From Gilvimarinus sp. DA14 (GTDB taxonomy: Bacteria; Pseudomonadota; Gammaproteobacteria; Pseudomonadales; Cellvibrionaceae), in assembly GCF_024204685.1 (NCBI RefSeq), contig NZ_CP100350.1, forward strand, positions 1,962,501-2,026,500: DNA of 64,000 nucleotides, in the 5' to 3' direction. Shown one piece after another: positions 2,050-30,848 of this stretch (the first letter of the stretch is position 1; every line of letters begins with the position of its first letter). The notes below the pieces were generated by a model. The model searched no databases. It saw only the letters and a program-made list of their open reading frames with translations, and was not told the DNA's origin. The translations under genes and the position numbers were made by a program.

Positions 2050-2262
2050 TCGCCCGATTACATCTGAGCCGAACGGAGGCCTATTTTAGTGGTTGAGCGC
2101 TCTGGATGAGCGCGAAAGGTTTAAGCGCACATGGATGTGCGATTTAAACCGACCGCTAAAATAGGCTGGAGAGAGGGAACCCCGCAGGGGCCAGATGTTG
2201 GGCAGGGTTTTTGGTTACTTTTTACCCCTAAAAAGTAACTCGCAACGCCCGGCGACACGGGC
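2050..2262 (-). repeat. Dispersed structured repeat, copy A
   Basis: A 213-bp element almost colinear with copy B (16025-16235) in the opposite orientation. It contains an outer stem (2080-2089 with 2156-2165) enclosing two hairpins: GCGCTC-TGGAT-GAGCGC at 2097-2113 and GGTTTAA...CGCAC-ATGGAT-GTGCG...TTAAACC at 2118-2150. A separate hairpin GTTACTTTTTA/TAAAAAGTAAC follows near 2214-2240, and a GCCCG/CGGGC hairpin closes the end. Compared with copy B the substitutions in the stems are paired. It lies between the integron patch and the 3' end of serB. Confidence 0.75.
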
Positions 2263-2292: not shown

Positions 2293-3510
2293 TCACAGAA
2301 TCTGATCCCGCTCCCGAAACCCCAGCAAATACAAAATCGCATCTAATCCTAACGTCGAAATCGCCTGCTCGGCGCTGGCTTTGACCAGTGGCTTGGCGCG
2401 AAACGCGATGCCCAGGCCTGCGGCGGCGAGCATGGGCAGGTCGTTGGCGCCGTCGCCTACAGCGATGGTTTGTTCGGCGGTAATGCCTTCGCGCTCGGCG
2501 AGCATTTTTAACAGCGCGGCTTTGCGCTCGCCGTTAACCACTTCGCCTTTTACCTCACCGGTGACTTTGCCGTCGACAATATCAAGGGTGTTGGCGTAGA
2601 CGTAATCGATGCCGAGTTTCTTTTGCAGGTATTCGCCAAAGTATTGAAAACCGCCGGAGAGAATGGCGGTTTTGTAGCCGAGCTTTTTCAGGCTGCTGAT
2701 CAGCTTGGCGGCGCCTTCGGTAACAGGCAAATTTTCGGCAATCTCGGCCAGCACGCTTTCGTCCAGACCTTTTAACAGTGCCATACGGCGGGCGAAACTT
2801 TCGTTAAAATCCAGCTCGCCGGCCATGGCCAGTTCGGTAATTTCGGCCACCTGCTCGCCCACGCCGGCCGCTTTGGCCAGCTCGTCAATCACTTCGGCTT
2901 CAATCAGGGTGGAGTCCATATCGAAGCACACCAAGCGGCGGTTGCGGCGATAGACGGTGTCGCGCTGAAAGGCAACGTCCGCTTCGTGGCGGGTGGACAG
3001 CTCCATAAAGTCGCGCCGCAAAGCTTCGCGGTCGGCCGGTTCGCCGCGCACCGAAAATTCAACGCAGGCGTTGCTTTTTTCGCTCTCACCCACCAGTGAA
3101 ATACGGCCCGACAGGCGACTGATATTGTCGATGTTCAAACCGTGCTTCACCGTGACCTGGGTCAGGTCGGCAATTTGCCCGGCCGTCACTTCGCGAGCCA
3201 GCAGGGTGACGATGTAGCGCGCCTTGCCCTGCTGTTCAACCCAATGGTGGTAACTGTCGTGGCTGATGGGAGTAAAGCGGATGTCGATGCCTAAATCGAC
3301 GGTAGCGCTTTGCAGCTCGGCCAGTAAGTGTTCTTCTTTCACTTGCTCGGTATCCACCCCCACCATAATGCCTAGGGTCAGGCTGTCGTGGATGACGGCT
3401 TGGCCGATATCGAGCACGGCGGCCTGATAGCGACTGAGCACTTGAGCGATGGCAGAGGTGACGCCGGGTTGGTCGGCGCCGACGGCGTTGATCAGGAGTA
3501 TTTGCTTCAC
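2293..3510 (-). CDS. serB: Phosphoserine phosphatase
   Basis: 405 residues. SerB hydrolyses O-phosphoserine to serine, the last step of serine synthesis, in the cytoplasm. Residues 1-180 form the two ACT-like regulatory regions seen in long SerB proteins (ILLINAVGADQPGVTSAIAQVL; ARYIVTLLAREVTAGQIADL). The HAD core follows with motif I DMDSTLIEAE (nucleophile Asp197, acid/base Asp199), motif II LSGGF and motif III VGDGANDLPML. The length matches Pseudomonas-type SerB. It is divergent from ytjB, the same arrangement as in E. coli and Pseudomonas, which supports both assignments. Confidence 0.96.
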   Translation of the reverse strand: MKQILLINAVGADQPGVTSAIAQVLSRYQAAVLDIGQAVIHDSLTLGIMVGVDTEQVKEEHLLAELQSATVDLGIDIRFTPISHDSYHHWVEQQGKARYIVTLLAREVTAGQIADLTQVTVKHGLNIDNISRLSGRISLVGESEKSNACVEFSVRGEPADREALRRDFMELSTRHEADVAFQRDTVYRRNRRLVCFDMDSTLIEAEVIDELAKAAGVGEQVAEITELAMAGELDFNESFARRMALLKGLDESVLAEIAENLPVTEGAAKLISSLKKLGYKTAILSGGFQYFGEYLQKKLGIDYVYANTLDIVDGKVTGEVKGEVVNGERKAALLKMLAEREGITAEQTIAVGDGANDLPMLAAAGLGIAFRAKPLVKASAEQAISTLGLDAILYLLGFRERDQIL

Positions 3511-16024: not shown

Positions 16025-16235
16025 GCCCGTGTCGCCGGGCGTTGCGAGTTACTTTTTGCGGCAAAAAGTAACCAAAAACCTCGCCCAACAACTGGCCCCT
16101 GCGGGGTGCCCTCCCTCCAGCCAATTTTAGCGGTCGGTCTAAATCGCACGTCCATGTGCGCTTAGACCTTTCGCGCTCGTCCAGAGCGCTCACCCCCTAA
16201 AATCGGCCTCCACTCGGCTCAGTCGTAATCGGGCA
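16025..16235 (+). repeat. Dispersed structured repeat, copy B
   Basis: A 211-bp element in the gap between trmH and the binding-protein gene. Structure read by eye: hairpin GCCCG/CGGGC at the left end; GTTACTTTTTGC/GCAAAAAGTAAC (16048-16072); CCCC-TGC-GGGG near 16097-16107; outer stem 16121-16130 with 16197-16206 (one mismatch); inner hairpin 16136-16168 with loop GTCCAT; inner hairpin 16173-16189 with loop GTCCA. On the opposite strand both loops show GGA. It is about 85-90% identical by eye to copy A and shares only structure and end motifs with copy C. Short frames through it are spurious. Confidence 0.8.
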
Positions 16236-30621: not shown

Positions 30622-30848
30622 GCCCGAGTCGCCGGGCGTGGCGAGTTACTTTTCTGTTGTTTGGGCAACAGAAACCTAACGAAAAGAAAAGCCCACCCCG
30701 GCGAATAGCCCTAAAGGGTGCCCTTACTACGGTCAATTTTTGAGGGCCGTATCGACGCGCCTTCCCTGGCGCGGCGATACTTGCGTGAGCGTCCTGCTCA
30801 CTTACCCACAAAAATAGACCTTCGTTCGGCTCATTCGCAGGGGCCCAA
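30622..30848 (+). repeat. Dispersed structured repeat, copy C (diverged)
   Basis: Same orientation as copy B. The left end (GCCCGAGTCGCCGGGCG, GCGAGTTACTTTT) and the right end (ACCTTCGTTCGGCTCA; compare CCTCCACTCGGCTCA) are recognisable, while the middle differs in sequence but keeps the plan: TTTCTGTTG/CAACAGAAA (30651-30674), outer stem 30731-30742 with 30809-30820, inner hairpin 30749-30780 with loop TTCCCT, inner hairpin 30785-30801 with loop GTCCT. The stem bases are replaced by compensating pairs. Confidence 0.7.

Follow-up and report, generated by a model that had tools for sequence, protein, structure and literature searches.

A dispersed, high-copy repeat of Gilvimarinus with a TwoAYGGAY core and paired GGA hairpins that resemble CsrA/RsmA sites

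We found that a single structured element of ∼215 nt recurs at least 41 times in the genome of Gilvimarinus sp., with three of the copies (A, B and C) lying in the 64,000-nucleotide stretch of DNA analysed here (the window). The core of the element is a catalogued RNA of unexplained function, TwoAYGGAY, and the element is present or absent between sister species at two sites. On balance, we lean towards the reading that it is a mobile repeat, a high-copy form of TwoAYGGAY, encoding an RNA with two binding sites for CsrA/RsmA, with the copies acting as binding sites or decoys; CsrA binding, transcription, an effect on gene expression and a mobilising enzyme are the parts of this reading that we infer.

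The initial annotation had claimed three intergenic copies in the window. Copies A, B and C indeed sit at the positions given there, with the same stems and loop sizes, whereas the actual copy number proved to be 41–42. This comes from the profile search with a covariance model that had been recommended: the model (R1), for which 29 core copies were aligned (alignment A1) and two insert-bearing copies set aside, gave 42 matches in the whole genome (a single contig of 3.96 Mb) and 41 in 388 kb made up of the window and 19 further stretches. DNA searches of the genome returned 51 partial or full matches with A as the query and 44 with C. A pattern scan gave 53 stretches, non-Gilvimarinus contigs among them, some of which are probably chance matches. 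The description as intergenic held for all 41 copies in the 388 kb, none of which overlapped a gene as predicted by a crude codon-usage caller.

Table 1. Positions of the features of copies A, B and C in the window, and of stretches bearing the loop insert in other loci
Feature	Position	Strand	Comment
Copy A, whole element	2051..2262	+	GGA strand; ends inferred from P0 and terminal hairpin
Copy A, R1 core match	2063-2182	+	130.2 bits
serB, gene on 3′ side of copy A	2293-3510	-	
Copy A, P0 5′ arm	2051..2070	+	Pairs with about 2189-2203; duplex-energy permutation test
Copy A, stem P1	2078..2166, arms 2078-2094 and 2151-2166	+	Encloses both GGA hairpins
Copy A, hairpin P2	2097..2113	+	Loop TGGAT
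Copy A, hairpin P3	2118..2150, upper part 2127-2140	+	Loop ATGGAT, closing C-G
Copy A, T-rich 3′ hairpin	2213..2239	+	The separate hairpin of the initial annotation; beyond the stretch of the RF01731 match in copy C
Copy A, terminal hairpin GCCCG/CGGGC	2247..2262	+	3′ end of element
Copy B, whole element	16025..16235	-	R1 core match 16104-16223 (-), 124.1 bits
Copy B, hairpin P2	16173..16189	-	Loop TGGAC
Copy B, hairpin P3	16136..16168	-	Loop ATGGAC
Copy B, T-rich 3′ hairpin	16048..16073	-	
Copy C, whole element	30622..30848	-	R1 core match 30716-30835 (-), 130.2 bits
Copy C, RF01731 match	30724-30827	-	45.7 bits, gathering 43
Copy C, hairpin P2	30785..30801	-	Loop AGGAC
Copy C, hairpin P3	30749..30780	-	Loop AGGGAA
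Copy C, 3′ hairpin TTTCTGTTG/CAACAGAAA	30651..30674	-	
Insert-bearing stretches	L136:5694-5899, L136:9113-9275, L140:12334-12493, L143:8185-8382		
Insert-bearing stretches	L144:17013-17175, L146:7796-7952, L146:9309-9465, L149:8555-8713, L253:1298		

The fold had been described as an outer stem around two hairpins. This arrangement was found (stem P1 around hairpins P2 and P3), except that P1 is not outermost, since a further stem (P0) lies outside it. The paired changes noted between A and B are real (GGTTTAA/TTAAACC versus GGTCTAA/TTAGACC), and the stems of copy C differ from those of A and B, with the stem layout and the loop sizes common to all three. Alignment A2 draws on Gilvimarinus and further genera, with 119 matches across 90 loci giving 117 distinct copies; it was fitted to the model, and hence leans towards structure. 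Its 29 core pairs were 97.0% paired, 27 of them had changed in both partners, and a covariation score of 0.646 was obtained, compared with 0.198 (sd 0.007) after shuffling and at most 0.105 in slid controls. In A1, an independent MAFFT alignment of 29 copies, pairing was 98.6%, there were 15 double-changed pairs (equalled by one of 500 shuffles), and the score was 0.459 against 0.163 for shuffles; further pair types in A1 showed no excess, the same number being reached by 168 of 500 shuffles. The selection on a folded structure that had been proposed is strongly supported.

We also compared 51 pairs of near neighbours (≥85% identity, Gilvimarinus only). Single changes within base pairs kept pairing in 41 cases and broke or restored it in 28, and double changes kept pairing in 35 cases and did not in five. 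From these counts, pairing seems to have been upheld during recent divergence. In stem P0, the 5′ flank pairs with a stretch just before a T-rich 3′ hairpin. With five of the 41 copies set aside for an insert in the 3′ arm, the mean duplex energy over the other 36 was −26.1 with cognate arms and −20.7 with non-cognate arms, and none of 2000 permutations was as stable. A hairpin of at least nine perfect pairs within 150 nt after the core was seen in 34 of the 41 own copies (33 T-rich with stems of at least nine pairs, and one terminator-like), in 13 of 21 hand-listed copies from other genera of the family and in 10 of 18 from other gammaproteobacteria, where one of the 10 was not T-rich; shuffled sequences gave none.

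The strand first assigned to the element (minus for A, plus for B and C) is the CC strand, and the selected one is the opposite, GGA strand (plus for A, minus for B and C). On the GGA strand, A2 contained 199 G·U cells versus 19 A·C cells. One U·G pair is frequent, being invariant in A1 and seen in 85 of the 109 A2 copies; with it removed, the numbers became 114 versus 10. The minimum free energy was lower on the GGA strand in 106 of 109 copies (8 of the 117 were left out by length), and the P0 arms gave −23.5 on the CC strand versus −26.1 on the GGA strand. Because G·U cells far outnumber A·C cells and the fold is better in 106 of 109 copies, a single strand seems to be under selection and not a two-strand cruciform, which narrows the ‘RNA or cruciform’ structure originally suggested. 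Judged from the alignments, the selected molecule is most likely a single strand, either RNA or single-stranded DNA (ssDNA).

A GGA was present in the P2 loop of 113 and the P3 loop of 117 of the 117 R1-matched copies, counts that are partly circular as R1 was trained on GGA-bearing copies. A count of perfect intergenic hairpins made independently of the loops in the model placed GGA/TCC in 56 of the 112 loops within element zones; beyond them it was in 11 of 115, several of these belonging to other twin GGA hairpins. Where both letters of the closing pair are present, it is C-G in 108 of 115 (P2) and 112 of 114 (P3) copies, and these closing pairs had entropies of 0.41 (P2) and 0.13 (P3), compared with 0.96–1.97 for the other P2 and P3 pairs. 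The strict form CA(N)GGANG was seen in 90 (P2) and 103 (P3) of 117 copies; both loops of copy C fit it, and the P2 loop of copies A and B, TGGAY, lies outside it. The distance from GGA to GGA was 29 nt in 86 of the 113 copies having both.

The optimal RsmE/CsrA site is given as A/UCANGGANG U/A in the available text of two papers (PMC6849547, PMC5864733), and the part available of a third describes an A(N)GGA motif and a CsrA dimer that bridges sites 10–63 nt apart (PMC4066749). The usual distance of 29 nt in the element falls within this range, and, by sequence, loops of the CANGGANG form match the published CsrA/RsmA site at a spacing that one dimer could bridge. Docking of CsrA/RsmA would be the most specific explanation of the loops. 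On the selected strand, the P0/P1 scaffold would present two C-A(N)GGAN-G hairpins, usually 29 nt apart, followed by the conserved T-rich 3′ hairpin; where the GGA strand is transcribed, one CsrA/RsmA dimer could bridge the two loops, and the dispersed copies would thereby serve as binding sites or decoys for the host CsrA. The host genome has two csrA genes, the main one of which looks canonical. All 36 element-bearing genomes tested have csrA, but this co-occurrence hardly discriminates, because 17 of 20 element-negative genomes have it too.

Comparison with Rfam, likewise recommended at the outset, identified copy C as RF01731 (TwoAYGGAY), with other own copies reaching 54.3 bits; copies A and B gave no match to RF01731 at E 1 or better. 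An already named family had been put forward as what would refute the initial annotation: such a family exists for C and many sister copies, and A and B gave no such match. In alignment, a single structure with two AYGGAY-type hairpins within a common stem accommodates A, B and the C-type copies, and it is only via this probable homology that A and B would belong with RF01731. A 2010 table gave TwoAYGGAY as a probable RNA and rated cis-regulation unlikely, and binding of CsrA was put forward in 2014 as a hypothesis from motif matches (PMC4333381), according to the available portions of these sources. Rfam types RF01731 as cis-regulatory and places it in clan CL00106 together with E. coli CsrB. 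Among the matches listed in literature searches, none for TwoAYGGAY described a spreading repeat, none for CsrA with intergenic repeats or REPs or for Gilvimarinus/Cellvibrio repeats described the element, and those containing its repeat strings looked unrelated.

The element shares with RF01731 the two AYGGAY-like hairpin loops on a common stem but is a high-copy dispersed repeat, and it extends beyond the stretch of the model match with P0, the T-rich 3′ hairpin and a terminal hairpin. The CsrA-sponge sRNAs CsrB, RsmY and RsmZ (CL00106) also carry paired GGA motifs in hairpin loops; unlike them, the element occurs in dozens of copies with two loop sites each and without an upstream promoter-like excess. 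The E. coli sRNAs rrA, rrB and rrF, which lie between rRNA-operon terminators, likewise comprise several near-identical copies, with CsrA interaction reported in vitro, but there are three copies tied to rRNA operons whereas the element is dispersed (PMC8144298, from the text available). New here are P0, the 3′ hairpin domain, the empty sites of A and B, a bias towards gene 3′ ends and an insert of 39–43 nt after GGA.

Core inserts of 39 or 43 nt were present in 8 of the 41 own copies, ten inserts in all. All ten lie in the apical loops of P2 or P3, directly after GGA plus C or G; inserts elsewhere score lower and could be missed, and longer ones are found beyond the 3′ end of the core. Apart from the inserts, the core measures 106–110 nt in all 41 copies. 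A regular-expression scan of 259 loci and the window, with sampling biased to element surroundings, gave 21 distinct strings, of which 18 were the insert, all 18 following GGA in a hairpin, and three were without the rest of the motif. The insert consists of AAGGTGAAT, a hairpin, AGAGA and a second hairpin, with stems that vary yet pair (GCTAC/GTAGC, GTTGC/GCAAC, GCC/GGC; CAGC/GCTG, CGGC/GCCG). The orthologue of copy A in genome G007 has an insert in P3, where the window genome has a plain loop. Some insert hosts, judged by eye, are other GGA-hairpin repeats (L194, L213). An Rfam search with a 401-base stretch containing two inserts returned nothing but a chance match (E 9.4).

At site B, the element is present in the window genome, G007 and G003, where the gap between the flanking genes is 475, 475 and 563 nt; in the sister species G001, G002 and G004 the site is empty and the gap is 115, 98 and 94 nt. 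Genomes G005 and G006 were uninformative, the upstream gene alone being matched. At site A, serB is found in all eight Gilvimarinus genomes, and an R1 element lies beside it only in the window genome and G007, with N runs in two of the six negatives (G002 and G006) limiting these. The flanks of the empty sites have diverged, and the two sites do not define the insertion junctions or target duplications.

REP/REPIN, MITE and other intergenic repeat families are dispersed and hairpin-rich, with some inverted pairs, and are present or absent between species. The element resembles them in all these respects and is itself intergenic, but it is ∼215 nt long with an elaborate strand-specific fold and was not found beside the Y1 genes of the genome. 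The genome holds two Y1-family genes, one apparently split over two frames, and six strings of the repeats were absent within 1.5 kb of either; a REP element linked to Y1/RAYT was rejected on this ground. At L169:1426-2300, a Y1-type transposase gene seemingly split over two frames adjoins pilin-like genes. Among 15 close pairs of copies, hand-picked rather than systematic, 11 were head-to-head and four tail-to-tail. The head-to-head pairs, with cores 100–193 nt apart, are at L011, L005, L025 (own), L076, L081, L101, L109, L112, L123, L129 and L131. Each of the three in the own genome joins one A/B-type and one C-type copy, and the spacers show no obvious conservation.

In 30 of 41 own copies (p 0.004), the neighbouring gene on the 3′ side of the element points towards it; for copies of other species the figure is 27 of 35 (p 0.002), six of the 41 matches there having been set aside, mostly for weakness or closeness to a locus end. 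As clustered copies have genes in common, the tests lack full independence. Where the element lies between two same-strand genes, the GGA strand was antisense in 22 cases versus 9 (p 0.03) and in 13 versus 5 (p 0.10). The element shows a bias towards gene 3′ ends. Relative to the gene on the 3′ side, the GGA strand therefore mostly runs antisense, and its transcription would need its own or an upstream promoter. In a crude consensus scan of the 110 nt upstream of 41 copies, the mean promoter-like score was 1.83 on the GGA strand, below the shuffled value of 3.67 (sd 0.53), and 3.95 on the other strand; these scores gave no sign of an sRNA with its own promoter.

The strongest alternative to an RNA is a transposition hairpin of ssDNA. 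The GGA-loop hairpins would then be recognition sites of a mobilising enzyme (e.g. an HUH/Y1 transposase) and the element purely selfish. This is the main rival, though we consider it unlikely. The copies are dispersed, with sites empty in sister species, the head-to-head pairs recall composite repeat units, the insert was seen nowhere but immediately behind the GGA of a loop, two Y1-family genes are present in the genome, and G·T mismatches may be tolerated in ssDNA hairpins too. Yet the repeat strings are missing from the surroundings of the Y1 genes, one of them apparently split, and nothing in the element varies less than the CsrA site together with its closing pair; moreover, twin GGA hairpins recur in other repeats with different linkers.

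The orientation of the neighbouring genes would also fit a 3′ UTR of the facing gene, in which the opposite (CC) strand acts as a terminator or mRNA stabiliser, and both the excess of facing genes and that of antisense placement between same-strand genes are as expected. We regard this as improbable, as on the CC strand the 199 G·U cells become A·C mismatches and the fold is less stable in 106 of 109 copies, and some facing genes, by eye, already have a terminator before the element. The bias in gene orientation is where the RNA reading is weakest, since read-through from the facing 3′-side gene (57 of 76 copies) would make the CC strand; insertions that place GGA loops in mRNAs may have been selected against. 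Stems kept through paired changes are what any inverted repeat under selection would show, and a role in double-stranded DNA, as a cruciform or as protein-binding palindromes, would account for them, but the excess of G·U over A·C, the asymmetry of the loop motif and the greater strength of the long-range P0 on the GGA strand make this highly improbable.

The orphan Rfam entry TwoAYGGAY becomes a testable system, with tens of copies in a genome, strand and fold resolved, and alleles that are present in one sister species and absent from another. Should the copies bind CsrA, mobile repeats would partly set the free concentration of a global regulator, a path of regulatory evolution that is seldom taken into account. 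Without such binding, the CANGGANG loops call for an unknown mobility enzyme. More speculatively, and rather doubtfully, GGA-hairpin repeats could act across gammaproteobacterial genomes as a mobile layer that buffers CsrA and is built of exchangeable RNA modules. Several families whose linkers differ would converge on paired CANGGANG loops, and a multi-hairpin module of 39–43 nt, plugged into these loops directly after GGA, would switch a protein-binding loop to another folded state.

R1 matched all eight Gilvimarinus genomes, with 13–42 matches each, and 41 of 144 genomes of the family, in 11 of 32 genera; with laxer filters on 20 chosen genomes, up to 39 copies were found in one non-Gilvimarinus genome. 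RF01731 was found in 14 of 38 genomes of relatives, the own genome included, and in 24 of 369 gammaproteobacterial genomes (22 of 272 genera). At least four copies were present in 11 of these 24, the host among them, the copy numbers being lower bounds with up to seven candidates scored per genome. The relatives found with RF01731 mostly have CANGGANG-type loops, read by eye in 23 printed loci of which five, near contig ends, were unreadable, and four distant relatives (L223, L226-L228) have CGA for GGA in one loop.

Seven Desulfuromonadales stretches (L176, L182, L195, L204, L207, L212 and L222) and one of Chitiniphilus (L181) have the right-hand framework, GGAGNGAGGGAACCCGNAGGGC and a T-rich hairpin, with another inner part, often like CTGTTTGAGCGNAGCGAGTTTT. 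This shared framework with a swapped inner part suggests modular evolution of a wider repeat superfamily. Among the framework-sharing stretches inspected, R1 scored 46.6 bits on L183, 30.5 bits on L181 and only 17.8 bits on L204, and gave no match (E up to 0.05) on the other six Desulfuromonadales stretches.

Further repeats of the host genome, with other linkers, also showed twin GGA hairpins by eye. A second such repeat, like GTGAAGGGAATCAC-TAATGCCGTG-GGCGCATGGATGCGC, is nested just before the T-rich 3′ hairpin in own copies 9113, 2229757, 3308127, 3570883, 2382796 and 2384309 (3′ part). At L137:14893-14960, there is a twin hairpin with loops CGGGA and AGGGAG and a different linker, CACGACGGAGTCGCCCGGAGGGTG. 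Another twin GGA-hairpin repeat occurs as two tandem copies at L141:1090-1165 and about 1270-1350, and its flanks resemble, by eye, a tRNA 3′ half on the other strand.
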